From: Austropuccinia psidii
Lineage: Eukaryota; Basidiomycota; Pucciniomycetes; Pucciniales; Sphaerophragmiaceae
Assembly (NCBI GenBank): GCA_023105745.1
Contig: JALGQZ010000009.1
Coordinates: 36,756,409 to 36,820,408, forward strand
Direction of reading: 5' to 3'
DNA: 64,000 nucleotides
The notes below the pieces were generated by a model. It was not told where the DNA came from and ran no database searches. It saw nothing but the letters and a program-made list of their open reading frames with translations. Of this stretch, positions 32,682 to 58,906 are shown piece after piece (the stretch's first letter is position 1; every line of letters starts with the position of its first letter). Made by a program: the position numbers and the translations under genes.

Positions 32682-33148
32682 GTGGGCTGTTGAATTTTTG
32701 ATGCCAAATGGCATCCTGGTATACTCATATATGCCCATATGGCATATGATTCTGAGTAATTTGATGGAGTTTGGTTTACCTTCATTCTGGTGGAAACCTT
32801 TCATACAATCCCTCTGGGTTATGTATTTGGCTTTTGCCAGTTTGTCTAAGGCATGAGGTATCCTGGGTATAGGGTACCTGTCAGCTTTTGTGTAGCTATT
32901 CAGAGCTCTGAAATCTCCACACAGCCTATAATTGCCATCATGCCAGGTGACCAGGATAGGAGTAGTAATTTCCACTATTTCACTGTGCCCAATATTTCTG
33001 AGGACATCCATGTCCAGGAATTCATGGACATGTTTTTCAATTTTCTTCCTTGTTTCCAGACTTGCTGGGTATGGAGGTCTCCTGAGCATGGGTGGATAAG
33101 GTCTTTCCAGATCTAGTTAGAGTTCTACAACATTGCCTCTAATTTTGC
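32682..33148 (-). pseudogene. II-b N-terminal RT
   Basis: It encodes RRPPYPASLETRKKIEKHV, ITTPILVTWHDGNYRLCGDF and MGIYEYTRMPFGIKNS, and then is cut by the family IV LTR. It keeps the tyrosine (AKAKYIT) that became a stop in II-a. Confidence 0.85.
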
Positions 33149-33793
33149 CTAGGGGTTCTTCCCAATGGCAAATGCTGGTCTGTTCTCTCTCAGCATCTTC
33201 AGTAAACTTAGTTTTTGTTTACTTGTGAGGGTAGTGTTAAACTGGCCCTCTCTGAATTCAGTAAGTAGTTCTTCCAGTGGATCCTGGGCAGATATTTGGT
33301 ATATATCAAGTGAAAATTTCTTTTCCTTGTTGGTATCAATGTTAATGTGCCTGTTTTTACTATTGCCAATATCAATACCATACATCCTCTGGTAATCTGT
33401 CCCCAGTAAAAGCCCTTGGATGTGGGCATCATCAAGCACTACAAACTGTGGGTTGAGTCTGATATTACCCTTCCTATGGGGTATAATTAATGGAATTCAT
33501 CTTCTGTGAAGCACTTTTGAAGTTCCTTCCCTTGGTTGGCAACAGTTGTTTTTCCCAATTTGAGAAGTGTTTCACCCAATATTTCTGGCCACTATGGAGC
33601 AGTGTGCCCCACTGTCAATGTAAAATAGGTGTTGAGAATTGTCAATGAAAACAGTCATTTTTTGTGGTGTGACCAGGAATGTTTGTGCATCCTGTGTATG
33701 TTTGCACAAGTTTTTATTGGAAGTGTCTTGTGGCATGCCTGCTTCCAAGTGTATGTCCTGGATTTGTAGTGGGGTTTCCTCTTGGCATTCCAC
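33149..33793 (-). pseudogene. II-b protease region
   Basis: Segments 33793-33572 and 33439-33149 carry the aspartic protease motif FYIDSGAHCSIVARN and then FLLGTDYQRM-like sequence (LLLGTDYQRMYGIDI). A deletion and frameshift near 33490-33570 separate them relative to II-a. Confidence 0.75.
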
Positions 33794-36700
33794 TAGAAAT
33801 TCTTCTCTTGGGTCCTGCTCTTCATCTGATTATTCTCTGATGGCATTTCCCATGGTGTCTGATTCAGAATCTTCTGTTGGGGATCCCTCCTCTGGGACTT
33901 TCTCAAATGCATAGACTTTTTTCTTTGCCTTTGGACAGCTGTTGGCATAGTGGTCTGTTGAACCACAATTGTGACAAGGTTTTTTCTTCTTGTTCACTTC
34001 TGCCAACCTTTCCCTTGGTTTGTCTTTAAGCTCCACCCTGAAAGGTTGTTTCTCCTTGAAACCACCACTTTTATATGGGGTGTATTGCCCTATATTAGTT
34101 CTTTTCCTTGAATCTTGTAAGGTATTTGCAATGTCATCTAGAGTGCAGTTTTGGTTGAATCTGCATTTTACTGCATGCTCTAGTTCTCCTGGCATTTGTG
34201 TCAGGAGTTTGTGATTCCTCATCTGAATGTCAATTTGGGGATCAATGGCTTTAAGTCTTTTATACTGTCTAAGACACCATTAATATGGATCTTTGTCCAC
34301 TGAATATTTGTCATTTTCAAATAAAATGGTCTTTTACCATATCCAAGTACCATTGCTGTACTTTTGGGTGATTTGACTCTTCCACGAAGGCCAGTTTCTT
34401 CTACCATATATTTCTTTCATTTCTGTGTACCATATACTAGCATGTCCTTTGAATGCTGTAATAAGTACAGCAGTGATCTAGTAGTCTGGTATGCTTGGTA
34501 CATAAATGAAGAGTCTATCAATATAATCTATGAGCTCCATATGATCATATTCTCCTGTTCCAGAAAATTTGGGCCAGCTTGAGGCCTCAGGAAGCTGTTT
34601 CAAGTCTTCCTTCTCTGAGTAAGACATATTATCTCCATACTGGTATTGTGATAGAGATCTTGCCTTATTCATCAACATGGCATCTGGTTTGATGTCATCT
34701 TGGTGATATGTATTATCCATAACATGGTGTTGTGGTTGGGACTTCATGTTATGGTAGACATTAAACAGTTTGTTTATTTCTTGTTCCAGAAACTCCCTTT
34801 CCCTTTTGCTGTGGTGTTGTTCTTCAAAGACTATATTCAGTATTTTGTTGGTTTCTTCAAAGGCTTTTCTCAATTCAGCTTGTCCTTCTTGAAGGGTAGT
34901 AACAATTTTGTCCATGGAGGCTGTCAATTCTTCATCCTCACATGGCTTGCTTCAAGTTCTGCAAACTTCTTTTGAGTTTGCTCAGAATATGGAGACATTT
35001 GTAACCACAGTGCATCACTGTTGAGGTTACTCTCAGGTGTGACTACATTATGTTCAATCTGAGTGGGGGTAATATTTCTTTTAATGGGACTACTGATTCT
35101 AGAGTTATGTGCAACTACTTCTGGTTCTTGTGGACTTCTTTCAAAAAATCCAACAGCTTCTGGATCATTGGGTCTGCCTCTCTTTTCCTTTGGCTGAAGG
35201 TGGTCTTTTCTTTGCCCTTGTATCCTTGTCTCCTCCTGGAAACCTCTGGGATTGTGAAGAGTGGTGACTCTTGGCCACTGATCTGTTGGTTTCTGAATTA
35301 TATGAAGCTGCTGGAGAGCTGGTTTGGCCTTCTCCTTGTGAGCCTGAAGGAATCTGAGTATGCCCTGTCTGGGTCAGCTGATCTTCTATAGCTTGTATAT
35401 TGGCTTGATTATCCCTTATCCTGTTTGCCCTTGCCTCCAGGAGTCTGAACTGCCTGGTAGGATTTTGACCTTTAGTGATTACCATAAGGTCCTTGAAGTC
35501 TATCTCTTTGGGACAGATCTTCTGGCAAATTTCTTCAAGTTCTGCCCAGTGGGATGCCAGGTTGAATCTCTTGTTGTCCATGCTCCATTGAAAAAGGTCT
35601 TTGAGAAGTTGGTGGAGCTGAAGAAGTTGATCCATATCCTTCTAGTCCTCTGGTTTGAGGTTTCTGTTGAATTGGAATGTGAATGGCAGAGTGGGTATGA
35701 TTTCCCTCAATGTCTTGCCATCCACCTCTGTGTCCAAGGTGTCCTCTTCCAGGTCTTCTGCTTCTAGACAAGCCTTCTCTGTCCTCTGGCTGGTGTGTTT
35801 GAAACCAAGGTGTCTGAGGTTTACAGGTGACATATCAGTGTTTGCAAGAAGTAAAAACCTATATTTTCTTCACCTGTACCAGAAAATTTGGGCCAGCTTG
35901 AGGCCTCAGGAATCTGTTTTACTGCTTCCTTCTCAGAATAAGACATATTGTATCCTTCCTGGTATTGATATAGAGATCTTGTCTTATTCACCAACATGGC
36001 ATCTGGTTTGATGTCCTCTTGGTGATATGAATTATTCATAACATGACCTTGAGGTTGGGGCTTCATATTATGGTAGAAATTAAACAGTTTGTTTATGTCT
36101 TGATCCAGCAAATCTCTGTCTCTTTTGCTGTGGTGATGTTCTTCAAAGATTAGATTCAGTCTTTTGCTTGTTTCTTCAGAGGCTTTGCTCAATTAAGAAT
36201 GTCCTTCTTGAAGGGTTTTAACAATTTTGTCCATGGAGGCTGTTCATTTTTTCATCCTCTCATGGATTGCTTCAAGATTTACAAACTGCTTTTGAGTTTT
36301 CTCAGCATATTGGGACATTGGTAACCACAGTGAATCACTGTTCAGGTTACTCGCAGGTGTGACAACATTATGTTCAATCTGAGTGGGGGTAATATTTCTA
36401 TTAATAGGACTACTGATTCTAGAGTTATATACAACTAGTTCTGGTTGTTGTGTACTTCTTTCACCAAATCCAACAGCTTCTGGATCATTGGGTTTGACTC
36501 TCTCTTCCTTTGGTTGAAGGTGGTCTTGTTTTTGCCCTTTTATCCTTGTCTTCTCCTGGAAGCTTCCTGGGATTGTGAAGAATGGTGACTCTTGGCCACT
36601 GATCTGTTGGTTCCTGAATGGTGTGAAGCCACTGGAGAGCTTATTTGGCCTGCTCCTTGTGAGCCTGAAGGAATCTGAGTATGCCCTGTCTGGGTCAGTT

Positions 36701-37600: not shown

Positions 37601-39406
37601 TGTAAGGTGTGGATATGAAACTTTGATTAAAAATCAAGTACTTTTCCTGTCCTCAAAATTTGTATAAGGTAAAATATAATTAAAAATAGAATGAAATAGT
37701 ATTTCCAAGAGAAAAACACGCCAATTTTATTCTTTTTAACTTTATAAGTATAAACCAATAATATTATAAAGATTTATTGTTTTATAAACAATAAACGTTT
37801 ATCCCAAAATACTCTACAAGAGGTATTTAAGGCTACACAAGAAATTTCTTCAAGAGCAATTTCAAAAAGAATTAATTGAGCAAAAAAATGAAATAAATTA
37901 ATTAAAGAACAGAGTCTTTAAAGAGATATTTAAAGAGAAAACACACCAAAAAGTGACCAGAGTGAATTTGGAAACAAAGTGACAAAGCTAACAGTGATGA
38001 AAGATACTTTAATTCACTTATGGGGTGGTTCAAGGCGTAAAAATGATTATAAGAGTTACAAACAATGATTATAATGATTTTTTCACGTGGTAAGAGGTTT
38101 GAAATGATATGAAATGGGTGGTTGGAATCTTTTATTGATTGGTTTAACAGTGTTTAAAGTAATTATAAAAGGAAAAGATTCTAAAATGAACAGAGAAGTG
38201 GGGCAAAGAAGATATTCTTTTATAGCCATCAATTTTCTTACTCCAAAGGTAAAATTTACTCTTGTCAGTCGTCTAAAACACTCTAAAAACAGAAAATCCA
38301 ATTATGGCATCATTGAACCCTGGTTTAGACCAAAGAAGGGCTGTTTTGAGCCATTTTAGACCCTTAAATCAGCCATTACTATAGTAATACCTGATCTAGA
38401 GCCTTTAAAACATGTCAGAATGTGTGTAAGAGTCGTAGAAGCCAGTTAGAACTGTTTTTTACTAAGATTGTTTTAACTTAGGGGTAGTTTTACCCTCTTG
38501 GCAACAGTTAAAACTGCCCTGGTTGGTATCAAAACCTCATCATCAATTGAGTCACAGACCCTGTGACTGAATTCCAGGCCAAAAGTGATGAACTTTTGCG
38601 TGAATTTTGATATCCCACGCCTGTCAGCAAGGATTTTGGGGGTCTGGCTGCCCTTTGGAGCTAGAGCTCCTTTCCCCCCCAGAATTAATCTTTCCAATTT
38701 ATTTTTTCTGTAATTCCTCATCATGTAATACATTTGTAATTTACACATACAATTCAATTGAGTTTTTACAATAAGCAACTGTAATAATTGATGCCTCACA
38801 TTTAAATTAAAGTTCACTTATGTAATACACACGCACATTTTGACATTTCAATTGAAAATACTTCAATTCCTCATAACTTCTAAACTACACACAACACCTC
38901 AATTCTAACTCAAAAATTGATGGTTAACACCACATGTAGTGTGAATTAAATTAAGGCTTTGAGGATTTGCAACTTTTGTACAGAAAATACTAAAAACTTA
39001 ACTTAAGATTATTTAGAGTTGAGTTACAGGAATTTTACCCAGAAGTGACCCCACCTTATCTTTTAAGAGGAATCCAATGGTCAAGTAATTTTCATAAGTT
39101 TATTTATTGGATAAAAAGTTATAATTTATTTTATGTAACGTTTACCAAAAAAAATTTAATTTCATTAATTTTATTAAAAATTCATTTTTACTCAATTTTT
39201 TCAAGTGAAAATGCAATTCCACAATCTTAAAATTTAATGTAATGTTTATTTTGAATTATAATTAAATTTTTATTTTTGTAGATAAATTTGTATTTATATT
39301 TTGATTCTTCTTTTGATAATACAAATAGATTTATTTCATTTATATTTATATCTTATTTTGTTATTTGTGGTTTTTTGGCTATATGAAAATACCTCTAAGG
39401 CTCACA
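37601..39406 (+). repeat. Family III solo LTR in the II-b leader
   Basis: TGTAAGGTGTGGATATGA...CTCTAAGGCTCACA, 1806 bp. Flanks TCACT (37596-37600) and TTACT (39407-39411) are a 5-bp target duplication with one change; the empty site GTATATTACTACAATA is seen in II-a at about 15200. Confidence 0.93.
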
Positions 39407-39944
39407 TTACTACAATATTCCCCTGTATAATTACAGTGTAATTCAATTAACCATTCCATGTCAGATATACAGTTTGTGGATTTCTTGTATACTGTTTGTA
39501 CACCAGTATCCCACAGATTAACTGGTAATTAGAAAGTGTAATCTGAAAGGTGGTTATGTAATGGGTAATTGAAATTAACAATACACCCAAAAACACCTCA
39601 ACTTTGGGTTTGACAGTAAGAGGTGTCCTGTTCAATTAAAAAAGGACTCTTATTAATGACTTAAAGTGTTTTTATATGTTAAACATGCCAAAAATAAGGG
39701 TTTTGTGGTGATTAAATGATAATCAACCATGCAACAATATAATTAAAAAAGATAAGAGATAGTGGTATATACCATATACCACTAAATATATATATATATA
39801 TATATATATATAAGATGTGTTTTATATATTTTTTGCAAAATTTACGCCTAAAAAGATAAAAAAATATTGTCAGAATAAAGAAAATAAGAGAAAAACTCAC
39901 TTTTAAGGTCCCAAAAGTAAAAAAACACAGCCATGCCCCCAAAA
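39407..39944 (-). other. II-b leader
   Basis: Non-coding AT-rich leader homologous to 15206-15695. It contains a (TA)n run at about 39786-39812. The bases next to the LTR, in element orientation, are TTTTGGGGGCATGGC, and a primer site may start at TGGGGGC. Confidence 0.6.
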
Positions 39945-41730: not shown

Positions 41731-42493
41731 TGTAACAACCATCCATCAGGGGTAAGGGTATTCATTCATACACCCACTCAAACACCTCAAATCAGAAAAT
41801 CCAGTATCTGCATCAGCATTCAGTTTCAGCAATCTTCATTCTGAAACATGCATACAGTTTGGTACATCAATACAGCCTGTCAATACCTGTACAGATTGGA
41901 TTCACTCAATACAGTTTCAATACACCAGTATGAAACTGTATGATCACTCAAATACACCACACCTCTTGTACAGGCTCTGTACAGCTGTACAAGACCTGTA
42001 TTGGCCAGACTCAATTCAATCATCATTTATTCTCATGAAAATTCTTCCTCTGGATCAGGGATGGTGATTCTCACATATACCAGCCCCTCTTTCTCCCCCC
42101 TGGGGACGTTTCCCCAGTTAATTAATTTAGTTTATTTATTATTTTATAATTATTCTTGTCCTTATTTTTGGGTATTATAATTATTTAATTTCAAGTTAGT
42201 CTTTGCATTTTCTTTCTTTGCCTGTACAGTATGAGTTGGGTGGCCATATCCTTATTAACCCTTCTCTTTCCATTCTGACAGGTTGAAACAGTGGAATTGG
42301 ACTTGTTTGTGGTTGGCTCTTCTATTTCTAATTCTTATTTCGTTGTTGCTGCTTTTCTCATATCTTTATTTATAGTAATTCATTCCTTACACTCTTAAGT
42401 GTCATTAATCTTTCCATATCCTTGTGCCCTCCATAAGTGAGTCCCAGTTTACTGAGTGCCAGGCCCTCTTCACTTTGAAGAGCCCCTGTGACA
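41731..42493 (+). repeat. 5' LTR of I-c
   Basis: TGTAACAACCATCCATC...GCCCCTGTGACA. The hairpin CTGGGGA-CGTT-TCCCCAG is at 42100-42117. The segment AGTTAATTAATTTA at 42116-42129 is complementary to 42495-42508 just outside the LTR. Several CTGTACAG/TGTACAG motifs lie at about 41880-42000. Confidence 0.95.
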
Positions 42494-42494
42494 T

Positions 42495-42508
42495 TAAATT
42501 AATTAACT
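42495..42508 (+). promoter_or_regulatory. Putative self-priming site of I-c
   Basis: TAAATTAATTAACT, one base inside the 5' LTR boundary, is the exact reverse complement of LTR positions 42116-42129. No TGG-starting tRNA primer site is present where one would normally sit. Tf1-type elements prime reverse transcription from the folded-back 5' end of their own RNA, and this arrangement fits that model. Confidence 0.6.
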
Positions 42509-43285
42509 CATATTTGATTCTTTCTTTTCCTTCATTTATATTCATTTCTCTCATTTATCAATTATGATCTCTTTTATGACTTAATGATCTTTAATGATTA
42601 TGATTTTTCTCTCTTGCAATTTCATCTCATTCATTTCATTCATATGAAATTGATTCTTCTTCTTTCTTAATCATTGCTGACCATTTCATTCACTTCATTT
42701 CATTTTATCAAATCAAATGTTTCTGTGTTCTTATTCAGGTCTTATTCAGGATTGATTATTGGTTTAATTGATTGGATTATTTCATTGGGATTCATTGGAT
42801 TATTGATTCAGCGGCTCAGGATTCTTATTTGGATTGATTGATTTTGACTTCTCAAGATATTGATTGATCCTCAAGAGCTGATTTTGATTATTGATTGACT
42901 TTGAATCCTCAAGATATCTTATTGATCCTCAAGAATTGATTTTGATTATTGACTGATTTTGACTCATCAAGATATTGAATTGATTTCTGAAGACTTTAAA
43001 TTGATTGATTTATTCCTCAAGACCTTGATTTCAAATTGAAGACACTGATTTATTGATTGGTTGATTATTGATTGAATATTGATTGATTGTTGACTTTCTC
43101 AAGATTATTGATATTTGATTTGAATTGATTGTTGATTGTTGAATTGATTTGACTGTTGACTGAATTTGATTTCACCTCAAGATTTGAATTAATTCCTCAA
43201 GATTCATCAAAATTTTATTGTGATTGATTTGGCCAAGTTTTGATCTCTGTTCTCATACCATCAAGTTTATTTCATTTTATTCAAA
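42509..43285 (+). other. I-c leader with repeated CCTCAAGA motifs
   Basis: This untranslated leader consists largely of TTGATT/GATTGATT units and about ten copies of (C)CTCAAGA between 42850 and 43205. There is no plausible coding before the ATG at 43286. The repeats are shared with I-a (13222-13902) and I-b. Confidence 0.65.
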
Positions 43286-43738
43286 ATGCCAGTTCAGCAT
43301 AGCCTCCCAGCCACAAATACTAGATACCAAAGAATTCAAGCTGTTCTCACTCCTACAGCAAGGGCTCCTCTTGACCGCACACCATCAGTTCTTCAACTGA
43401 GTGCAAGCTTGGACAGAGGACCACCAATGGAAGGAGCAGCACCCTCAAGAAGAGGTGGAATGAAATCTAGAAGATCAAGATCTTTCTCTGGACTTTTGGG
43501 TTGCTACCCTGGCATGTCTGAAGGTGTTAGAGCAAGACAAGGGGAAGTTGAAGATGAAGAGGGGGAAGAGTCTGTGGAAGAGGAAGATTCTGGGGAAACT
43601 GAAGTGGCAGATGCCTTGGAAAATGGTCCAGAGGTGCCTCAGGGTTCTAATCTAGCCCTTTCTAGTCAACCTCTTGTCTCTCAAACTGATCCAAGTCTCC
43701 TCAAGATGATGGAGCAGATGACTCAATTCATGGGGTAA
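43286..43738 (+). CDS. I-c ORF1, 150-aa protein upstream of gag
   Basis: ATG at 43286 (MPVQHS), TAA at 43736-43738 after QFMG; 150 aa. It has a basic Arg/Ser-rich half (SRRGGMKSRRSRSFSG) and then a long acidic stretch (EVEDEEGEESVEEEDSGETE). No known domain is seen. The frame after the TAA is in register with gag, and the stop is identical in all three copies. The acidic region could interact with basic gag or nucleosomes, but that is speculation. Confidence 0.7.
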   Translation: MPVQHSLPATNTRYQRIQAVLTPTARAPLDRTPSVLQLSASLDRGPPMEGAAPSRRGGMKSRRSRSFSGLLGCYPGMSEGVRARQGEVEDEEGEESVEEEDSGETEVADALENGPEVPQGSNLALSSQPLVSQTDPSLLKMMEQMTQFMG

Positions 43739-44645
43739 CTCACTCAAGCAGTTGCTCCCAGGGACAATTCTAAAGCCCCTGCTTTTAAGACTCCATCCAT
43801 GAAGGTGCCTGATTCTTTTGATGGTACTCAAGCTCATAAATTGAGAGGATTTATCCAATCCTGTCAATTAATCTTCCATAATTATCCAGCAAATTTCTTC
43901 TCTGACAGGAGGAAAGTTCTTTACTCAACTTCTTTTCTCACTGGTAGAGCTGGAAAGTGGATTGAACCCTATCTCTCAAATATTTCCAATGAAGACCCTT
44001 CCTACCTCCTCAATAATTGGCCACTATTTGAATCTCAATTATTCACTCTGTTTGGTGACCCCAATGAAGTCAGAAAAGCTGAACAAGAGTTGGACAATTG
44101 AGGATGAGGGAAAGTGGTCAAGTTTTCTTGTACATAGCTGATTTTAGAAGCTTGATGTCAAGAATTGGAGATTGGGGGGAAAGAGCTTATATCCATGTTT
44201 ACATAAGAGGATTGGCATCAAGATTATTGGATCAGTTGGCTTCTCACCCTGGAGCTTTTTACACTCTTCAAGAACTTATGGATGTCACTTTAGAATTAGA
44301 CACAAGATATCATGAGAGGCAAAAGAAAAGGGTGGCAATCAAGATAAGAAGCCTCCAGTCATTGGATCCAATCAATCTAGGCCTCCTCAAAACTCATCTT
44401 CAAAGAGGTTTCACCAGAAGAAGAACAAGAAGGGCAAGCAATTTCATTCTTCAAAGGACAAGCCCCATGCTGCTCTCCTCAATAAGGAAAATAAATTAAT
44501 TGGTTCTGAAAAGGAGAGGAGGATCAAAGAGGGGTTGTGTACTTATTGTGGTGAAAAGCACCTAATTGAAAAATGCTTCAAGAGACCTCAGAACAAGCCT
44601 GGGTCATCATCAAGAGGCTTCCCTAGCAAGCAGGGAAAAGCCTGA
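43739..44645 (+). pseudogene. I-c gag with two single-base deletions
   Basis: It is open from the ORF1 stop; the first ATG is at 43799 (MKVPDSF). The gag core matches I-a until about 44098, where GACAATTGAGG has lost a T relative to I-a, creating a stop. A second base is missing in the A-run near 44330. The knuckle CTYCGEKHLIEKC (C-X2-C-X3-H-X4-C) keeps its His. The slippery heptamer GGGAAAA (44633-44639) is followed by TGA at 44643-44645. If the deletions are real, the copy makes no full-length Gag; homopolymer sequencing errors are possible. Confidence 0.85.
44633..44639 (+). promoter_or_regulatory. Putative -1 ribosomal frameshift heptamer (G GGA AAA)
   Basis: Gag reads CAG GGA AAA GCC TGA. 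The heptamer fits X XXY YYZ exactly, and slipping back one base gives GGG AAA AGC CTG AGT, which continues into the protease frame. The same heptamer in the same register occurs at 11866-11872 (I-a) and 21337-21343 (I-b), each a few bases before the gag stop. Confidence 0.75.
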
Positions 44646-47600
44646 GTGGGAATCATGATGTGTTCAATGGTTCTCACTTGTTTCCTTCAAGAGCACAATT
44701 GTGCACTCTGAATACTAGTGTCAAGAACTCTTTAAAATTTCTTATTTTCTCTTCTGTCTCTGATATTTTTTATAGTATTCTCATTGATTCTGGTGCTACA
44801 AACTCTTTTATTGCAAAGAATTTTGTTCTCAAGTACTCATTGACTCTGTCAGAGCTCCCTGAAAAGATTCCTCTTTTCATTTTGGACTCTAATGAATCCC
44901 CTGCCTTGTTCATCACCCATTATACCAAGTGGGTAGTTCACTTGCCTTCCTTCCCAAGCTTTGATTGGGACTTCTTTACCATAGATTCACCCAAGGGAGA
45001 AGACCTGATATTGGGTTATGATTTCCTTTACCATTTTAATCACATTATTGATTGGAAAAATGGATTGATCACCTATGATTCTAGTGGTATTATTCCTTCT
45101 ACTAGTAATGACTTAGCCACTGCTGTCAACAGTGTTGCTCTGGTTGGTGAACTTAAGACACCTTCCCTTCCTTCTTCTGTCCATATCCCTCCCATCATTC
45201 CCTCTCAGTCATTACTTCCATTAAGAGATGAAGTCTTCAAAGAGATAGAGGATGTTGGAGAAGATGTTTCCATATCTTCACTTCATCTCTTTCAAGGGGA
45301 TATGGACCTTCCTCCCTTATCTTTTCATGCATCCCTGGAGGAGCAGTGGGATGAGGAGGAAGAGCCAGAAGAAATCGAAACTGTGTTGAAGGTAGTCCCT
45401 CCTGCTTATCACCAATATTTGGATGTATTCTCCAAGGTGAAAGCAGAGAAATTTCCTCCACACCGCGCCTGTGATCACCATATCGAATTGGAGGGTCTTC
45501 TACCTCCAATTGGTGTTATCTACTCATTATCAAATTAAGAGTCAGAAACACTGCAGGCCTACATTTCAGAGAATGTAGAGAAAGGTTTCATAAGACCAAG
45601 CTCCTCTTCAACAGGAGCACCTGTCCTTTTTGTCAAGAAAAAGGATGGAGGTCTTTGTTTGTGTGTTGACTACCGCAAACTCAATGCTGTCACTAGGAAG
45701 AACAGATACCCTGTCCCTCCTATGAACCAGCTCCTTACCGTATTCAACGGTTCCACTATCTTCTCCAAGATAGATTTGCGTGGTGCATATAACCTTCTGA
45801 GAATCAAAGAGGGGGATGAGCACTTAACTGCCTTCAAAAGCAAGTATGGTAGTTATGAGTATTTGGTCATGCCATTTGGTTTGACCAATGCTCCTGCTTC
45901 TTTCCAGAATCTTGTAAATGATATATTTGCAGATCTCTTGGATGTGTTTGTTGTGGTTTATCTAGATGATATTGTGGTATTCTCAAGTTCTGAGGAAGAA
46001 CATGTCAAACATGTGACCTCTGTCCTCCAAAGACTCAGAGAAAATAATTTATTTGCCAACGCCTCCAAGTGTGTATTCCATGCCTCAAGTGTGGAATACT
46101 TGGGCTATGTTGTTTCAAGTAATGGCCTCAAGATGGATTCTTCAAAAGTTCAGCAAATCCTCAATTGGCCTCAGCCCAAAAACATCAAGGCCCTTCAATC
46201 TTTTCTTGGCTTTGCCAATCTTTATTGTTGTTTCATTAAAAATTATTCCAAAAAAATCACTTCTCTCACTTCCCTTCTCAAAAAAGATTCTCCCTTTATC
46301 TTCAATGAGGAAGCTCTTAGTCAGTTTCAAGACCTCAAAGAAGCTTTCACCTCTGCTCCTATCTTATCCCATTTCAATCCATCTCTACCTACTATTGTAG
46401 AGACTGATGCTTCTGATTATGCATTGGGCGCCGTACTGAGTCAGGTGAATGACTCAGGAAAGCATCCCATTGCATTTGATAGTCGCAAGCTCGTACCAGC
46501 TGAACTCAACTATGAAATTCATGACAAGGAGCTCCTTGGCATAGTTTGGGCTCTCAAACGCTGGAGAGCATTTCTTCTTTCTCTTTCCAATTCTTTTGAG
46601 GTCTTGACAGACCACTCTTCCTTGCAGTATTTCATGTCTTCCAAAGTGCTTACTTGTCGTCAGGCCCGTTGGGCTGAATTTCTCTCAGAATTTCACTTAA
46701 CTATCACTTACCGCCCAGGCAGGCTGGCCACTTTACCAGATGCCTTGTCTTGTCGGGAAGACGTGTACCCAGAGAGGGGGGTGGACTTCATCAGCAAGAA
46801 TCCTCAAAATTTTCATCAAGTACTTAAGCAAGATGGAATTCAAGAGTCAAGATTCTTCTCAATCAAAGTGGAGATTTTCTCAGATTTGGTAGACAAGATT
46901 CAAAAAGAAGTATGGCAAGACAAAGACTATAAAGAAATACTCAAGCAACTAGAAAGAGGTGAATCAGTTCCAGATTATTCTCTTGAACCTCAAGCCAAGT
47001 TATTATTATTCAAAGATAGAGTGGTAATCCCAAGCAATGAAGAACTTCAACTCAATATTCTTCAAAAGCGTCATGACTCACCATTGGCTGGCCATCCTGG
47101 CCAGGAGAAGACCCTCAAACTCATCAAGAGGGATTTTTATTGGGCTGGCATGAATCAATTCATCAAGGACTATGTGTCCTCTTGTCAGCAATGTTCAATA
47201 AACAAGAACATTCATCACAAGAAGTTTGGATTACTCAAGCCTCTTTCAATTCCGTCTGGTCCTTGGAATTCATTATCAATGGACTTCATCACTCAATTGC
47301 TACTGTTAAACAACTTTGATTCAATTTTAGTAGTTGTGGACAGATTCTCAAAAATGGCAATCTTCATTCCAGCTTATGGAACAATCACTGCTCTGGACTT
47401 AGCTCAAATCTTCATTAGTCATGTATTTTCCAAGCATGGACTTCCAGTCAGTATTGTCAGTGATAGAGGATCCTTATTTGTTTCATCATTTTGGACGCAA
47501 TTGTGTCAGCAGCTCAAGATATCAAGAGATCTTTCAACTGCCTTTCACCCTGAAACAGATGGACAGACAGAGAGGGTAAATCAGATACTAGAACAGTACC

Positions 47601-48346
47601 TTTGGATGTATGTCAACTATCATCAAGATGACTGGTATATGTGGCTTCCTCTGGCTGAATTTGCCTATAATAATGCAGAACATTCATCAACCAAGCAATC
47701 ACCTTTTTTCAACATTTATGGAAGAAATCCCAGCTTTGACTCAATCCATATTTCTCAAGACTCACCTTCTGGAAAGTTATCAACAAAACTCCAATCAGTA
47801 CAGCAAGTTGTCAAGGAAGAATTAGAGTCAGCAATAAGGAGATTCAAGAAGTATGCAGATAGAAATAAAGCAATTCCACCTGATTTCCAACCTGGGGACA
47901 AAGTATGGCTAGCTTCCAAGAACATCAAGACAACAAGACCCACCAAGAAGTTATCAGAAAGATGGTTGGGACCTTTTGAAGTTCTGAAGAAGATTGGCAG
48001 TCATGCATATCACCTCAAGTTGCCTCAGCAATGGAAGACAGTTCACCCTGTATTCCATGTGTCCTTATTAGAACCAGTCAAGCATTCAACTATCCCAAAT
48101 CTTCATCAATTGCCGCCACCACCAGTTTTAGTGGAGGAACAAGAAGAATGGAAAGTGGCTCAGGTTCTGGACTCAAAACTCAAAAGAGGTAAATTATGGT
48201 ATCTTGTAGAGTGGAAAGGATTCATTGAAGACCCAGAAAGAACCACTTGGGAAGCAGCTTCAAACCTTACCAACTCACCAGACCTTGTCAAGGATTTCCA
48301 TTCATTGTATCCAGACAAGCCTGGTCCAAATACCTCAAGAGTTTGA
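44633..48346 (+). pseudogene. I-c pol: protease, RT, RNase H, integrase, chromodomain; one in-frame stop
   Basis: Entered at GGGAAAA in the -1 frame relative to gag. Protease: ILIDSGATNSFIAKNF with LILGYDFLYHF. A TAA at 45536-45538 stands where I-b has CAA. The next frame (45539-48346) is fully open: RT (VPPMNQLL, MPFGLTNAPASF, YLDD), RNase H ([29 protein letters not shown]), integrase (HDSPLAGHPGQ...CQQC; SMDFITQLL; IVSDRGSLF; HPETDGQTERVNQ), GPY/F (RWLGPFEVLKKIG) and a C-terminal chromodomain (WYLVEWKGFIEDPERTTWEA). All catalytic Asp/Glu residues I can locate are present. Apart from the single stop, Pol looks functional. Confidence 0.92.
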
Positions 48347-49102
48347 TTTATGGTGCTTGGTGGGGAGAAGAAGTTATGAAAGTAAGTTCCTCTCCTGGCA
48401 TGCACCTTTAAGGGGGTATTCTACCCATATGTTGTTGTAAGCATCACCTTGGCCACTTTGTGAGCACTTGTCAATTCTTTGGACAGGTTTAGGAAGCATA
48501 CAACACCAATACCCTCCAATTTGGACCTTATCAAGATATGGCCAAATGTTTCTTTCTTTCTCTTTTATTTATCATTTCATTTTTGCCAATCATCATAATT
48601 CAAGACATTCATTACTTCAAGTCATTTACAGCAATTCTTTTCAGAAGTCATTTATGGAAATTCATCTCAGAAGTCATTTATGGCAATTCTTTTCAATTTT
48701 ATGGTGCTTGGTGGGGAGTGGAAGTTATGAAAGTAAGTTCCTTCTCCTGGTATGCATCCCTGAGGGTTCTGCTTCTTGTAAAACATTACCTTGGCCACTC
48801 TGTGAGCATCAAATGCCTGGTTTTCATTTTTCAGACACTTTTTAGCCAGAATCAAGCAACTCACCATAAGAAGGACCAACCATCAGGATTTTTTCTTTGT
48901 TTCTTTCTTTACTCTCATTTTCTCTTATTCTTTTATTTTTTCTTTCTTTATTTACTTGTATAATTTTCTTTCTTTTATTTCTTTAAAGCAGCAGCATCCC
49001 CTCCCAAATCATGTATTGGGAGGTTCCATTATTTCTTTCATTTTTTAGTATTATAAGAGTGGGGATAGAAGCCAAACCAAACACAAACAAGGAAAAGGAA
49101 AA
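48347..49102 (+). other. I-c spacer between convergent genes, with internal repeats
   Basis: This AT-rich spacer is non-coding. It has a spaced direct repeat (ATGGTGCTTGGTGGGGAG at about 48350 and 48700, each followed by AAGTTATGAAAGTAAGTTC) about 350 bp apart, and tandem TTCAGAAGTCATTTATGG-like units at about 48625-48690. It presumably contains the polyadenylation signals of pol and of the opposite-strand gene. Confidence 0.65.
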
Positions 49103-50397
49103 CTAGTTATCTCTACCCAAATCATCAAAAGTTCTCTGGAAATCATTTATCAACTCATCTTCATACCAGGAAAATTTTGCAGCCATCTCTTCAGAAGCAG
49201 TACCTGGAATAGTCCTGTCATTGGCATACATAATCACCTCTCTGCTATTTCTATCAACCCTCCTGAACAATCTGGCCACAGCATCTTGACTTTCACTAGC
49301 CGCGTTGGGATCTTCTCTGGTAACCCGGATAGGCCAACGTTCCCTTCTTTGAAAAACTTGAGCGGCAGGAAACGGCGAAGGGGACAATCCATCTCTTCTT
49401 CTGCTGGAGCTGGCCACAGGTTGGAGTTGACGGGAGGTGTTTATGGGTGAGTTTCTGGACTGTTGAACTGGTGATGGTCTTACTGCTGGATTCAAGGTAG
49501 GCCTGGTGGTGTGGGAAGTAGTTGGTGAAGGAGGAGGAAGGGTTGTAGGAATGGAAGCAAGCATTGGTTGGAAGGTTCTTGGAGTGCTGGGAATAACTTG
49601 GCTTTGTAATCTAGTGTTGGAAAGAGGTTGAGAAGAGGAATTGCTGGATGGATGGCCAATTGAATGAGAGATAACTTGAACTTCTTCACCATCCAACTCA
49701 TCACTTCCTTCAGCATCTGGATCTGTTGGGGAATCAACAATTCTTCTTAGTTTCTTCACTACTTTCACAACTCCATCAGCATTGGTCCTTGAGATTGCGA
49801 TTTCTGAGCTGTAGTGTATGGGCCTACCACCAATTGGAATGGACCCTCCAACATTAGTCCACCTGGCCACATCCCTCTGCCTGGAACCAGTCACTAAATC
49901 AAAATATCAGCACCAATTCAATCAAAATATGCAAATCACTCACATTGAGAAAATCCAGAAGTTTCATCAGGGGTAGGTTCCTCAAAAATGGGGAATTCCT
50001 GCCCATAAGGCCCATCTTTCCTGCTCCATAAGTGTCTCCTGACCTGGGACAAAGTTGATGCAGTACAACGACATGGCTTCTTCTCAACAAAGCAAAAGTG
50101 GCATTTTGACGATTGAGGATTGTAATGTTGAAAGCATTCCTTACCCCTGGCCAAACATTCAGTACAGGCAGGATCAAGAACTTCAACTGCTTTGAACCCA
50201 TCATAGGTTTGGGAGGGGTCAAAATGGCCAGAAGACGCCATGGAAGGGGAGTACAATTGACTGAAGACACCAGAACCATGAAGAACAGATGGTGGCGGTA
50301 CAGAAGGAGAAGATTCAGTGAGCTCAGTCAGTTTGGAACTCATAACTGAAGAATATGCAAGCAGAAGATTCAAGACCTCAGAATCAATCCACTCCAT
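49103..50397 (-). CDS. Opposite-strand gene of I-c: spliced, 414-aa Zn2Cys6-like protein
   Basis: It runs antisense to gag-pol between pol and the 3' LTR. Exon 1 is 50397-49944 (an alternative ATG is at 50343), the intron is 49943-49894 (GTGAGT...TTTAG, 50 nt) and exon 2 is 49893-49103; the joined frame is open for 414 codons. Residues ~75-110 read ACTECLARGKECFQHY and then CHFCFVEKKPCRC, with spacing C-X2-C-X6-C-X10-C-X2-C-X6-C. This matches the fungal Zn(II)2Cys6 binuclear cluster. The middle is rich in Ser/Pro/Thr and low in order; the last ~70 residues look helical (DAVARLFRRVDRNSREVIM; EEMAAKFSWYEDELINDF). The basic residues usual between Zn2Cys6 cysteines are few, so DNA binding is inferred only. 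All three family I copies carry it. Confidence 0.75.
49894..49943 (-). other. 50-nt intron in the opposite-strand gene of I-c
   Basis: GTGAGT donor, TTTAG acceptor. Joining CAA-T to TG-ACT gives ...SGFSQ-L-TGSRQRD. The same intron exists in I-a (6555-6604) and I-b (28285-28335). Because the element's genomic RNA is transcribed from the other strand, this intron would not be removed during retrotransposition. Confidence 0.75.
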
Positions 50398-50696
50398 ATC
50401 AAGGAAAAGAATTCAACCTCAAGGAAATGGGGGCCATAACTCAATTATGCCCCCCCTCAAAGCCTCTAAGGTGAAGGTTCATACCCCTTTGGGGCTGAAC
50501 TCATCACCCAGGGCCTCCCCTGCAACTTTGGGGAGGCCAGGAACTTGATGGTCCTGGACCCCATCAATGGGTCCAGGCCATGTATGGTGAAAGTGATATT
50601 TGGGCCATTTCTAGGCCCCTTGGTCACCCTGGGTCCCCAGCAAATTTGGGCCCAGGGGCTCCATTTTGGTCCGGGGGGCCTCCATTAACCCCCATG

Positions 50697-50750
50697 GACC
50701 GCGGACCACAGACCACAGACCACAGACCACGGACCGCAGACCGTAGGACC
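50697..50750. repeat. Tandem 8-bp repeat (GACCACAG/GACCGCGG variants)
   Basis: About six head-to-tail 8-mers such as GACCACAG and GACCGCAG lie here. The I-a counterpart (about 5778-5807, inverted) has only about three units, so the array differs in length between copies. Confidence 0.8.
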
Positions 50751-50979
50751 CCAAAGAAGCAAAAAGGCCAAATATGGCCAAAAATCAAAGAATTACCCAA
50801 CTTCACCACAACACCCAAAAGGCCCAAAAGGTCAAAAAAATGAAGAGGTATCAAGAATTCCTCAGGGGAGAGGCCACAGCCCAGAGCACTTTGGAGGGCT
50901 GTTTGAGGCCATTTCCATGGACAATGGGGACAAGACCCCTGGAATAAAAACTTTCAAGAATTCATTGGATTAAACCTTG

Positions 50980-51010
50980 CCCAATGAGTACACTTCATAT
51001 ACTCATTGGG
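50980..51010. promoter_or_regulatory. Hairpin with 11-bp perfect stem, I-c copy
   Basis: CCCAATGAGTA (50980-50990), loop CACTTCATA, TACTCATTGGG (51000-51010). It corresponds to 5537-5569 of I-a, where the loop sequence differs but the arms are the same. Confidence 0.7.
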
Positions 51011-51330
51011 AATCATTTTTTGAGCACAAGAGCTCAGTGGCCCTTATTCTGGGATATATCCCAAGGCCACATTCCAACGGCATGGTTGATTGATTCAGTA
51101 GAAAAGAAATGCACATTCTGAAGTGGAATAATTACTCAAACTTGGAAACAGGGGGGAATCAATTGAGTTTGACAGAGAAGGAGTGAAGAAGGATTTTCAG
51201 GATAATGGCCAAGAGGAAAAGAAAATTAAAAAGAAATTTTTTTGAAAAAATGTGGGGATATTGAGATGCCACTCAACAGTGGCAGGGTTATGGTGTTCAG
51301 GAGCCCACCAGTTTCAAGCGGGGGATACTG

Positions 51331-52089
51331 TAACAACCATCCATCAGGGGAAAGGGTATTCATTCATACAACCACTCAAACACCTCAAATCAGCAAATCG
51401 AGTATCTGCATCAGCATTCAGTTTCAGCAATCTTCATTCTGAAACATGCATACAATTTGGTACATCAATACACCCTGTCAATACCTGTACAGATTGGATT
51501 CACTCAATACAGTTTCAATACACCAGTATGAAACTGTATGATCACTCAAATACACCACACCTCTTGTACAGGCTCTGTACAGCTGTACAAGACCTGTATT
51601 GGCCAGAATCAATTCAATCATCATTTATTCTCATAAAAATTCTTCCTCTGGATCAGGGATGGTGATTCTCACATATACCAGCCCCTCTTTCTCCCCCCTG
51701 GGACTTTTCCCCAGTTAATTAATTTAGTTTATTTATTATTTTATAATTATTTTTATCCTTATTTTTGGGTATTATAATTATTTAATTTTAAGTTAGTCTT
51801 TGCATTTTCTTTCTTTGCCTGTACAGTATGAGTTGGGTGGCCATATCCTTATTAACCCTTCTCTTTCCATTCTGACAGGTTGAAACAGTGGACTTGGACT
51901 TGTTTGTGGTTGGCTCTTCTATTTCTTATCCTTACTTCTTTGTTGCTGCTTTCTCATATCTTTATTTATAGTAATTCATTCCTTACACTCTTAAGTGTCT
52001 TTCATCTTTCCATATCCTTGAGCCCTCCATAAGTGAGTCCTAGTTTACTGAGTGCCAGGCCCTCTTCACTTCGAAGAGCCCCTGTGACA
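51331..52089 (+). repeat. 3' LTR of I-c
   Basis: It is the partner of 41731-42493 with the same ends; about 20-25 differences by eye. The hairpin here (51698-51714) lacks one G of the left arm. It is followed by GATAT (52090-52094). Confidence 0.95.
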
Positions 52090-52700: not shown

Positions 52701-53174
52701 AAGGAAGGGGAATGATTCATCCATCCCTTACTAGCAAGATAATCTAGCTATTCATATCAAAGTATTATAGATTTTTAGGTTTGATTAAGAGTGATTTCTA
52801 ATTTACATTAGTCAACAGAAGGTCTACACTATATTATCAATCCACCCTATGCTTGAGTTATTAGTCTTATAGCTATGATACTTCCAATAATACTCATAAA
52901 ATTGAGTTTATCCCCATAGCCTATGTATAATAAACAAAAAATATTCATATTATACCTTTATATTAAAAAAGAACCCTTGATAATATACATTATTACATAA
53001 AAAATCACACTTATATCTTATTATATCACTCATATATTTAACAAATATCTCTTCTATATTAAACACTACCTTCCCTATCAATGATTAAACATCTCACCGT
53101 TACATAATATTCACAATTAACCACTAAAAAAATAAGAACTGTGAAATATATATAAAATCAGATTACACTTCTCC
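52701..53174. other. AT-rich unassigned stretch between two LTRs
   Basis: After the family II LTR end this ~470-bp segment has no coding and no similarity I can see to the other elements. It could be old host sequence or the remnant of an element's internal region. Confidence 0.4.
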
Positions 53175-55000
53175 TGTAAGGTGTGGATATGAAACTTTGA
53201 TTAAAAATCAAGTACTTTTCCTGTCCTCAGAATTTGTATAAGGTAAAAATCAATTAAAAATAGTAAGAAATATTATTTTTAAGAGAAAACACACCAATTT
53301 TACTGTTTATAACTTTATTAGTATAAAACAATAATATTATAAAGATTTATTGTTTTACCAACAATAAAAATTTATCCAAAAATACTCTACAAGAGATATT
53401 TAAGGCTACAAAAGAAATTTCTTCAAGAGCAATTTCAATTGGAATTAATTGAGCAAAGAACTGCAAGCAATTAATTAAAGAACAAAGTCTTTAAAAAGAA
53501 TATTAAAGAGAAAACAAGCCCAAAAGTAACCAGAGTGAATTTGGAAACAAAGTGACAAAGTTTACAGTGATGAAAGATGCTTTAATTCACTTTTGGGGTG
53601 GTTCAGGGGTAAAAATGATTATAAGAGTTATAAACAATGATTATAATGATTTTTTCACGTGGTTAAAAGGTTTAAAATGATTTAAGAAATGTTTTTGGAA
53701 TATTTTATTTATTGGTTTAACAATGTTTAAACTAATTATAAAAGGAAAAGATTCTAACATGAAGAGAAAAGTGGGGCAAAGAAGACATTCTTTTATAGCC
53801 ATCAATTTTTTTACTCCAAAGGTAAAATTTACTCTTGTCAGTCGTGAAAAACAGTCTGACAACAGAAAAGCCAATTATGGCATCATTGAACCCTGGTTTA
53901 GACCAAAAGAGGGCTGGTTTAAGCCATTTTTAGCCATTTTAGACCCTTAAATCAGCCATTACTATAGCAATACCTGGTCTAGATCCTTCAAAACACGTCA
54001 GAATGTGTGTAAGAGACGTAGAAACCAGTCAAAACTATTTTTACTATAATTGTTTTATCTTAAGGGTAGTTTTACTCTCTTGGCAACAGCTAAAACTACC
54101 CCAGTTGGTATCAAAACCTCATCATCAATTGAGTCCACAGACCCTGTGACTCAATTCCAGGCCAAAAGTGATGAACTTTTGGGCAGATTTTGACATCCCA
54201 TGCCAGTCAGCAAGGACTTTGGGGGTCTGGCCCCCCCTTAGAGCTAGAGTTCCTTTCCCCCCCAATTTTAATCTTTCCAATTTATTTTTTCCTTGAATTA
54301 CTCATCATGTATTATACTTGTAATTGAAATATGTAATTCAATTGAATTGTACAGTAAAATACAGTAATAATTGATACCTCACATGTAAATCAAAGTTCAC
54401 TTATGTAATACACATGCACATTTTGACATTTCAATTGAATTCAATTGAAAATACTTCAATTCCTCATAACTTCTAAGCTAAACACAACACCTCAATTTTA
54501 ACACAAAAATTGATGGATAACACCACATGTGGTGTAAATTAAATTAAAGTTTTGAGGATTTTCAATTTTTGTATTGAAAATACTAAAAGCTTAACTTAAG
54601 CTTATTTAGAGTTGAGTTACAAAAATTTCACTCAGAGGTGACCCCACCTAATTTTTTATGAGGAATCAAATGGTGAAATAAATTTTATATGTTTATTTAT
54701 TGGATAAAAAGTTATAATATATTTCATATAAATTTTTACCAAAAATATTTTAATTTCATAATTTTTATTAAAAATTCATTTTTACATAATTTTTACAAGT
54801 AAAAATGAATTTTCATAATTTTAATTTTTATTGTAATTTTATTTTTAAATTATAATTAAATTTTGTTTTTTAAATATAAATTTGTATTTATATTTCAATT
54901 TTTATTTTTCTAATATAAACAAATTTATTTTATTTATATTTATATCTTAATTTATCTTTTGTGGTCTTTTGGGTATATGAAAATACCTCTAACGCTCACA
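53175..55000 (+). repeat. Family III LTR at the right edge of the nest
   Basis: TGTAAGGTGTGGATATGA...CTCTAACGCTCACA, 1826 bp, same orientation as the two other family III LTRs. The flanks TCTCC and TTGAT do not match, so either the duplication decayed or one side was lost by recombination or deletion. It ends about 1.05 kb from the stop codon of the host glucanase gene. Confidence 0.88.
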
Positions 55001-56052: not shown

Positions 56053-58906
56053 CTAAGGGTTTCCGCACACCGGTGTTGGTGGAGCAACACCGACTCCACC
56101 CCAAGGATCCAAGTATTGGCATCCCGCTTGGGGCACCCACCATTTGGCGGTGTCTGAAGGCTGAGTCCAACCGCTTCCAGGATCAAGCTTAGCCCAAGGT
56201 GTCGGAAACGCTGTCGGAACGAGGGTGACTGGGGTACCAGTGGCCACATAGCTAGGCAAGGCGCTGGCGACATAATTGTTTCCACCAGCTGCTCCAGAGA
56301 TGGCTGCTGGAGGGAACGCACTGTATTGACTAACTTGTGCTGGAGCAATGTTCCCCGCCCCAGGACCGCCCGTCTGCCAGGCTTGTAAAGCACCAGCCAC
56401 AGCTTTCGGAGCAAACGTTCCTCCTTGAGCTGCCACAACAGCGCTGCAACGCCCATTACTAGTGCGAGCGTCTCCCCTGCCAATGAAAAATTCCAGTTAA
56501 GACACAAGAAAGAAGGCTATTTTCAACAAAGAAAAATACCTAATATAACCACTATTTAGACCACCTTGATAATTCCACATTGGGTTGGGTATGTTGTTTT
56601 GTTTGATAGATTTTCCAATCTTCCAAGTCCAAAAGAAGGAATTTCCAAAGACATCTTGTTGAGTTTGTGCCAGATCAGCAAAAGCATTCTTGGTGTCTGC
56701 AGTCCACAAACTGTCGTCCAGCCATTGCCTAAAAGTAATAACAATCGCTAAATCCTCCATTTCGCTAATGAAAGCTGGATTAAAAGCTTACGTGCAACTT
56801 CCCAGTCGTGGATACTGGGCATCAGGTTGTGCCGCGGTAGGAAAAGTTCCTTCAAAGCGCTCTCCATAACCAACATTATTGACAAACCTATCACAAAGAA
56901 AATTTAATCAGCTTATTTCTAACAGCGCAGGGAAACACAAGACGAACAATCCACAGTCATTGATAGCTAATCTGGAAGAGCAAATGAAAACGAAATTCGG
57001 TATGCATAGGCGAAAAATAACGTCAGTCTATGAAATGTGTTTGTTCTCAATTAAATTTCAATAAAGATTAGACCGACGAAAATTCTCCAACCACACCCAC
57101 TCCAAAATTGGAGATTGTTGTATTAGGCGTACCAGCCCATTGTTGACAAGGTTTTACAGAATTAGCGGCAACTGTATCGGTATTTTGACCCTGAAAGCAG
57201 AAATATAAATGAGAGTCCATTCCAATACGATCGGCTCCTTCCAAAAATCCATTCCATGCTTGAGTACTTCCAAAGCCATCGTGAATGACCATAAATGGAC
57301 CATTTCCTTCCCCTGTTCCTCCAATTGATCGAAGCATTTCATAAACTTGATAGTACCTTTGGTCAGATACAAAAGCATGAAAATTCTCAAACTACATATT
57401 TCTCAAAATTTATTCATAGCCATGTAGGGGCTTACCAAGTTCGTATGGGAGTCTCACCTATTATGGTGACTTGTGCCTCGTTCAAAACAGAAAACATAGG
57501 TATGACATTCTTGTATTGAGGTTGACTAATAAATTCGGTAAGTGTTCGCACGTAATTGAGTGTTCGCTGAGCGTTAGCTATACCCATTGCCCCACGAAGA
57601 AAGCCAATGCTTCCGAATTTCCCAGAATGATTCCATCCATTCTGCGAGCCAGGAACAGCATGAAGATCAAGATTTATACGGAGGCCATACTTGCGTGCCC
57701 ATGCAATTGCCTTGAGAAAATATTTGAACGACACCCCAGCGATGAGCGGTTCATTCGTCCAAGTTTCAATCATCCACCACCCAACTGGAAGCCGGACCCA
57801 GTTCAAGCCTGCCGCTGCAATTTGTGCAAAGTCTTGTTCTGTAATAAATGTGTTATAATGATCTTCAATGGTGGCTGCCGCTTTTTGTCCAAGGGTTGTA
57901 CACAACGACCACTCATCAACCACTGGAGTGGCCTGATCTGCATACGGTTCAAATAACGAAGGAACTATGAAAGGTTCAATCACAAGCCAGCCTCCAAGAT
58001 TCACCCCCAAAATTCTATTTTTTGAATAGTCCCAACGTTCAGCCAAGGAAGGCTGATCGCCTTGAGGTTTTGCTGTATCATTCAGTGGTATTGAAACCCA
58101 AGTACCCCCAAGTGTGTTGTTATAAACAAAATTCTGACCATTTTCTGTCTGTTGCAAAATATGAACACATTGAAAAATGGTAAATGGAAACATTTAGATC
58201 TGAAAAAGTCTCTTACTGTGATAGTATCGCCTCCCACACCCCATAGCTTTGTTCCTGTCTTCGCACTCCCACTTTTAGCGCTAGGCAATGAAGTTAAAAT
58301 TCCTGAAGCACTGTCTTGAGTTTCCGTCCTATGGTGTCGCGTCCCGAGGACAATTCCCAGAATAATAGCAATTGCGGCGAGGGCAAGAAGAATCAGAGCA
58401 ATCGCTCCGCGCATGATATTTCGGCGTTTGCGATTGGCAACATCAGGTGCAATTGGGCCACTTCCAAGTTGAGAATCTTCAGCTTTTGCAAAAACATCAT
58501 TTTGCTGTTCAAATTGATACCCTGGACTGGTAGGAGCGCCTTCTTCCTTATGGAAAAATCTGTCAAGGAGAATACGTTAGTGTTTAAGCTATCATGAGAT
58601 GGGCAAATATGTGAGGCTAACTAACGGGACGGCAGCTTCAGCAGTCTCGTCCAGCAACACACTGTTTCGACTACCTGTAGTTACCTCACTAAAAGAAGTA
58701 GCCCCACTGACAGGCCTGTATTCGTTCGCTGCAGCTCCCAAAAAGCGGGGGGCTGCTGTTGCTGTCGGGATAAAAACTAACCAATGTGTAGCTTAGTCAA
58801 AAAGTCATCTGCCTCAAGACTGAAGAAGGAAAATTATCTCACTGTCGGTTTCATCATTTTCATGTGGCAATGCATTCGGATCTTCCAACGACGTTGGCGC
58901 GTCCAT
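56053..58906 (-). CDS. Membrane-anchored exo-beta-1,3-glucanase (GH5), 8 exons
   Basis: I read exons 58906-58843, 58761-58626, 58559-58217, 58148-57436, 57356-57078, 56887-56792, 56728-56540 and 56476-56053, all GT-AG, giving about 747 aa. A cytosolic tail of ~115 residues ends in RKRR. A single transmembrane helix (residues ~119-140, AIALILLALAAIAIILGIVL) follows, so it is a type II membrane protein with the enzyme outside. The catalytic domain starts around LGVNLGGWLVIEPF. Key motifs are WVRLPVGWW, LDLHAVPGSQNGW, the proton donor Glu in SVLNEAQ (~405), VIHDGF, and the nucleophile Glu in GVVGEFS (~510). GH5 exoglucanases release glucose from cell-wall beta-1,3-glucan. A Pro/Ala/Gly-rich tail of ~140 residues follows WTWKIG and is unusual in length. 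I found no frame break. The subfamily (GH5_9) is inferred from motifs. Confidence 0.9.

Follow-up and report, generated by a model that had tools for sequence, protein, structure and literature searches.

The stretch of DNA analyzed here (64,000 nucleotides of the rust fungus Austropuccinia psidii, contig JALGQZ010000009.1, positions 36,756,409 to 36,820,408; hereafter the window) contains a long terminal repeat (LTR) retrotransposon, termed element II, that spans positions 41731–52089. Its 5′ LTR (41731–42493, plus strand, 763 bp, with the ends TGTAACA...GTGACA) is directly preceded, and its 3′ LTR (51329–52089, plus strand, 761 bp) directly followed, by the 5-bp target duplication GATAT, and the two LTRs are 96.7% identical. 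The gag-pol region (43286–48346, plus strand) is represented by three listed open reading frames (ORFs; 43286–43738, 44660–45538, and 45659–48346), the sense frames being interrupted in this copy according to the ORF list. A profile search of the sense strand identified matches to aspartyl protease, reverse transcriptase, RNase H, integrase, and a chromodomain, the last of which (48149–48304, plus strand; PF00385, E = 1.3e-08) covers residues 831–882 of the ORF at 45659–48346. Element II therefore belongs to the chromoviruses, the chromodomain-bearing Ty3/Gypsy elements, as shown by these domains, the LTRs, the 5-bp target duplication, and the position of the chromodomain at the C-terminus of the integrase.

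On the strand opposite to gag-pol, between pol and the 3′ LTR, lies a gene of 414 codons counted from its first methionine (Met1), which occupies positions 49103–50397 (minus strand) and lies 757 bp beyond pol. It consists of exon 1 (49944–50397, probable start Met19 at 50343), a 50-bp GT–AG intron (49894–49943), and exon 2 (49103–49893, stop codon included), which encodes a Ser/Pro-rich linker followed by a C-terminal domain; the segment 50071–50166 on the same strand encodes residues 78–109, which contain six cysteines with the spacing C-X2-C-X6-C-X10-C-X2-C-X6-C. The initial annotation had proposed a 414-codon antisense gene with one intron, this placement, and this cysteine spacing, all of which are confirmed. 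It had also pointed to homologues at the equivalent place in two other elements, and these were indeed found in element I-a (6101–7377, plus strand; the element itself lies on the minus strand at 4472–14664, with the target duplication CTTGG) and in element I-b (27553–28735, minus strand). Both homologues are disabled. In I-a, the frame is shifted by two indels and interrupted by one stop; in I-b, it is shifted by one indel and interrupted by four stops, and the splice acceptor is changed as well.

A search of the genome (1.015 Gb, 84 contigs) for further copies returned 5290 candidates for exon 1, of which 150 were scored, so that the family is far larger than the three copies in the window. 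Forty copies were fetched: a first batch of 20 from the top 29 of the 150 scored exon-1 rows, mostly rows without listed stops, and a second batch of 20 from the list obtained with the diverged query P0099, nine of which were chosen for having no listed stops. In a tree, the second batch, intended as diverged, has four copies (L035–L038) inside a young clade together with the first batch. All or part of the pol C-terminus was found downstream of the gene and antisense to it in all 40 fetched copies, and an LTR was found upstream of it in 36 of the 40, in samples that were drawn via the antisense gene itself and whose counts are silent on the share of elements without the gene. When the lists were compared by eye, at least 11 of 131 listed pol places, the window's own included, paired with one of the 150 scored exon-1 places. 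Dozens of the 131 share one and the same score (665.2 bits), and most of these have an open frame of 1244 codons, which is a sign of a very recent burst. Among the database proteins, all 120 relatives listed, of 616 matches, are from A. psidii MF-1, and a second search with proteins of about 410–1304 amino acids gave three matches among 22 candidates, all from A. psidii.

The strength of selection on the encoded protein was estimated from 43 copies, comprising the 40 fetched copies and those of elements II, I-a, and I-b; 22 of these are open (without a stop or frame-shift) and 21 are disabled. Between the three copies of the window, dN/dS was 0.24 (bootstrap 0.15–0.38), 0.30, and 0.26. For pairs of open copies, the pooled dN/dS in bins of rising dS from 0.02 to 0.8 was 0.33, 0.22, 0.17, 0.29, and 0.26; the lowest bin (dS up to 0.02, five pairs) gave 0.81, as expected for fresh copies, and disabled copies gave 0.34–0.69. 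When the same exons were read in the wrong frames, dN/dS was 1.34, 1.52, 1.21, and 1.55 in four of the five, and the fifth, the reverse frame with mirrored third positions, gave 0.35 yet contains 294 stops over the 22 copies. In matched pairs, the antisense gene showed a dN/dS of 0.17–0.27 versus 0.44–0.56 for the pol C-terminus, the pol figure being inflated by two poorly aligned copies; the last 300 codons of pol are stop-free in 17 of the 22 open copies. The antisense gene is a protein-coding gene under purifying selection, and its constraint is at least as strong as that on the pol C-terminus. The comparison of dN/dS between genomic copies, suggested as a check in the initial annotation, thus came out in favor of selection (0.17–0.33 for open pairs at dS 0.02–0.8). 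In the most distant open pairs (L009–L052), dS was 0.46 for the antisense gene versus 0.22 for the pol C-terminus; element lineages may have exchanged their 3′ modules, or the mismatch may be an effect of the alignment.

These values bear directly on a reading in which the antisense RNA is the functional product, controlling the element through double-stranded RNA, and the reading frame is incidental. Such an option is discussed in PMC7264820, and transposon-antisense long noncoding RNAs are reported for a powdery mildew (PMC10648671). Strong selection at the protein level and conserved splice sites, with the intron ends GT and AG found in 41 of the 43 copies (one of the 41, L042, having most of the intron deleted), argue against it and make it very improbable; because of the dN/dS values, the RNA as the sole function is refuted, and it may add to a role of the protein. 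The same data weigh on the proposal that the gene is a passenger from the host with a cellular role and none in the element. The intron and the gene's own non-coding upstream region would suit a host gene, and no homologue outside the element was found among the 120 of 616 proteins listed or the 150 of 5290 exon-1 candidates scored, a sample that a single-copy host gene could escape; the linkage of every fetched copy to the element, together with selection that persists across the compared copies, leaves this proposal with a low probability.

Constraint is unevenly distributed along the protein. In 105 pairs (15 by 7 open copies), the regional dN/dS was 1.88 for residues 1–18, 0.24 for 19–57, 0.19 for 58–76, 0.14 for 77–112 (the cysteines), 0.28 for 113–165, 0.37 for 166–210, 0.31 for 211–330, and 0.15 for 331–414, so that the cysteine region and the C-terminal region are the most strongly constrained. 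Residues 1–18 show no constraint; of the 22 open copies, 13 have ATG at the Met1 codon, whereas all 22 have it at the Met19 codon. Because Met1 is variable, the residues that follow it are unconstrained, and Met19 is invariant in open copies, translation probably starts at Met19 (position 50343), giving a protein of 396 amino acids. The database gene models P0003 and P0111 begin at Met19 or its equivalent, and residues 1–15 are covered by about 10 of the 120 proteins listed (of 616). A structure model of exon 1 contains a fairly confident helix over residues 6–27, and translation may start earlier in some copies.

Among the window's open frames, the Zn(II)2Cys6 spacing pattern was matched twice, once each in elements II and I-a and both times within the antisense gene family, as against no match in 40 dinucleotide-block shuffles; the spacing is therefore not due to chance. 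None of the 22 open copies has lost any of the six cysteines, whereas 11 of the 21 that are disabled retain the full set (Fisher p = 1.8e-4); within the second batch alone, the full set is retained by 7 of 7 open versus 4 of 13 disabled copies (p = 0.005), a contrast that partly reflects age, as four of the seven open second-batch copies belong to the young clade. Four of the six cysteine codons show silent TGT/TGC variation in open copies. The proposal in the initial annotation that the element itself carries this gene has held up, given the linkage of all 40 fetched copies to pol, the purifying selection, and the retention of the six cysteines in every open copy. Among the database proteins aligned at all six positions, only 28 of 93 keep six cysteines; we infer that most of the others are translated from decayed copies, because the genomic copies found with the diverged query P0099 mostly contain stops. 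At the cysteine-consensus positions of the homologues P0003–P0122, phenylalanine is the commonest replacement (70, versus 6 for tyrosine), corresponding to G-to-T changes, and changes from D to Y (66) are nearly as common as those from D to N (71). This mutation spectrum is unusual, beside the CpG decay described for the A. psidii genome.

In the Zn(II)2Cys6 domain of fungal transcription factors, the cysteines are spaced as C-X2-C-X6-C-X5-12-C-X2-C-X6-8-C, and the spacing in the antisense protein falls within this range. It fits exactly the reading in which the element captured a genuine Gal4-type transcription factor of the Zn(II)2Cys6 class from its host, with the LTR or CGG triplets as the present target of the protein. 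Sequence comparisons tell against such an origin. The Pfam profile Zn_clus (PF00172) matched neither exon and is absent from the eight families matched by 61 aligned members of the family at E values of up to 1, and a scan of the whole genome with PF00172 yielded five places over the cut-off, none of which belongs to this gene family by sequence. The residues between the cysteines were compared with eight first and eight second half-domains, taken from Gal4, Lac9, zinc clusters within the genome, and three yeast domains. In direct order, they scored −13 to −20 (shuffle p 0.41–0.80; −13.1 and p = 0.41 for the copy in element II), as against +8.9 to +23.4 for known zinc-cluster domains left out in turn. 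The basic residue pattern that follows the second cysteine, between cysteines 2 and 3, is not present. A circularly swapped zinc cluster, with the second half first, was suggested by eye; it scored slightly above the direct order, but the p values of 0.07–0.22, depending on the copy, are not significant, and it was rejected. Two further matches were discarded: a weak one to metallothionein, which 7 of 61 members gave at a best E of 0.053, short of its cut-off, and one from the PDB sequence search, at an E value of 2. Of the zinc-cluster reading offered in the initial annotation, the spacing is exact and stands, whereas membership of the family is not supported: number and spacing of the cysteines are common to the antisense protein and the Gal4 class (PF00172), and profile, basic pattern, and residue similarity, which is at the level of shuffles, are not. 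The antisense protein is accordingly not assigned to the fungal Zn(II)2Cys6 family, and its cysteine region is likely to work like a small two-zinc domain, because the cysteines are invariant in open copies.

The DNA upstream of the gene contains a CGG/CCG-rich array of 7-bp tandem repeats (50697–50742), which lies about 300–345 bp upstream of Met1 in element II and about 285–390 bp upstream in close copies, and which is common to another repeat family. An equivalent array is also found in the window at about 5783–5805, and the ratio of observed to expected CpG in the window is 0.166. At least one CGGNCCG site was found in 20 of 20 first-batch copies and in 3 of 20 second-batch copies, and such sites about 300 bp upstream would suit a Gal4-type factor. 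When lists were compared by eye for contig 1 below 23.3 Mb, the array lay at the expected distance of 2.35–2.53 kb from five of the six pol places there. The 14-mer CGGTCCGCGGTCCG has 2095 matches in the genome, some arrays giving several, versus none for a reversed control. Twenty array places, all on contig 1 and picked along the listed places, were read: five carry the gene, four have related upstream DNA but lack an exon 1 within reach, and the remaining 11 were assigned to another repeat family because their frames are alike. With the gene at only 5 of the 20 places, the array was rejected as a dedicated target of the antisense protein, and any link between the two is a guess. This distribution counts against the Gal4-type reading, as do the missing Zn_clus match in the 61 members and in the whole-genome scan and the inter-cysteine residues, which are no nearer to real domains than shuffles are in direct or swapped order; overall, we regard a captured host factor as decidedly unlikely. 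A further reading, which we also consider unlikely, is that the element has evolved a DNA-binding regulator of its own, with a new metal domain in which the zinc-cluster spacing was reached independently, and that this regulator acts on the array upstream of its gene; as a second repeat family carries the array too, both families would then be under the control of a single protein in a rust genome of gigabase size.

The two AlphaFold models are of low confidence (mean pLDDT 50.5 and 46.6); over the cysteines, where pLDDT is about 58–72 in one and 35–54 in the other, they show a helix plus a hairpin and no clear zinc cluster, and a Foldseek search with the exon-1 model gave no match. The only confident part of the model of homologue P0003 is a C-terminal helical hairpin (helices 321–351 and 359–385, with ten-residue pLDDT means of 66–88), which corresponds to about residues 347–411 in element II (49115–49309, minus strand) and is a common arrangement without informative structural matches. 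A small cysteine domain combined with a helical hairpin could also belong to a nucleocapsid-like or integration accessory protein, in which the cysteine domain binds RNA or cDNA of the element and the hairpin assembles the particle or the pre-integration complex. The constraint, comparable to that on pol, is consistent with this proposal, and pre-integration roles for antisense accessory ORFs (aORFs) are discussed in parts of PMC7264820; an antisense, separately spliced gene would be an odd source of a structural protein, and the Pfam scan of both exons gave no zinc-knuckle match. We consider a protein of this kind unlikely. No nucleic-acid-binding family was named for the antisense protein by the PDB sequence and Pfam searches.

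The reading that we favor, to which we give about an even chance, is that of an accessory protein encoded by an antisense aORF, which combines a zinc-cluster-like metal site with a helical hairpin and probably acts as a nucleic-acid-binding regulator that adjusts transcription of the element or the fate of its DNA copy. According to this model, the gene would have a promoter of its own in the stretch of about 0.9 kb that separates it from the 3′ LTR; antisense transcription would proceed toward pol, and the transcript would be spliced once to encode a protein of about 396 amino acids. The small cysteine-rich domain near the N-terminus probably binds two zinc ions, the Ser/Pro-rich linker is probably disordered, and the C-terminal helical hairpin would be suited to self-association. 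The protein would most likely enter the nucleus and bind nucleic acid, and there it would adjust how the element is transcribed or what becomes of its DNA copy. That the gene is expressed, that its protein binds metal and, in the nucleus, nucleic acid, and that it acts as a regulator are all put forward here as predictions; a nuclear regulator is suggested by the position of the gene, the selection on it, its likely metal site, and the nuclear location reported for the Grande protein of plants.

Antisense genes in this position have precedents. In HTLV-1, a bZIP regulator, HBZ, is encoded on the antisense strand near the 3′ LTR, with its start in the 3′ LTR; HBZ and the A. psidii gene have the antisense location near the 3′ LTR in common, whereas HBZ is a bZIP protein that starts inside the LTR, so that the likeness is one of analogy only. 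Among fungal elements, Boty (BcGypsy1) of Botrytis cinerea carries an antisense gene, brtn, between pol and the 3′ LTR, as described in parts of PMC7264820 and PMC8365987. Boty is likewise a Gypsy LTR element of a fungus and has its additional antisense gene in the same place; its host, in contrast, is an ascomycete. The plant elements with antisense aORFs include Grande (gene23), RIRE2, Retand, and PvRetro13, in which, according to sections of PMC7264820, the gene is present in most copies and conserved; in the same sections, the Grande protein is reported as nuclear and its gene as transcribed from a promoter upstream of it, SMC and transposase_28 domains are named for PvRetro13 and Retand, respectively, and the antisense accessory proteins are described as being of unknown function, with no clear similarity to other proteins for any of them. 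The A. psidii element resembles these elements in the place and orientation of its gene and differs in that their hosts are plants and that no six-cysteine domain is named for them. As is characteristic of the class aORF-3R, its gene runs antisense to gag-pol in the interval from pol to the 3′ LTR and is conserved like the other proteins of the element.

The initial annotation had stated that a zinc-cluster protein was not known in a fungal LTR element. The antisense layout itself is already known from Boty, and what is new is the protein: a literature search in which subscription journals were thinly covered gave no paper on an antisense gene of zinc-cluster type from a fungal LTR element, the words "antisense," "zinc," and "chromovirus" are absent from the main text of the A. 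psidii genome paper, and "antisense," "zinc," "chromodomain," and "chromovirus" are absent from a 2025 paper on rust transposable elements. As far as these searches show, the novelty lies in the protein family, in the six-cysteine domain that it carries, and in how strong the evidence for selection is. Large copy number, a clear signal of selection, and a compact, testable six-cysteine domain together provide a handle on the function of antisense accessory genes, and likewise on whether such genes helped to drive the bursts that inflated the rust genome, of which over 90% is made up of transposable elements according to parts of PMC8063080.

Several other features were observed in the window. 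An element of a second type at 1515–3073 (minus strand) encodes a zinc-knuckle protein (zf-CCHC, E = 1.9e-04) with a weak protease match below the cut-off, and it is repeated near 32674–35743. Three copies of a 1.8-kb repeat (23432–25257, 37601–39408, and 53174–55000) are 85.6–87.4% alike. An ORF of 253 amino acids at 57432–58193 (minus strand) has a partial-domain match to glycosyl hydrolase family 5 (Pfam Cellulase, E = 3.7e-06) and may be a host gene, or a fragment of such a gene, that lies among the repeats.
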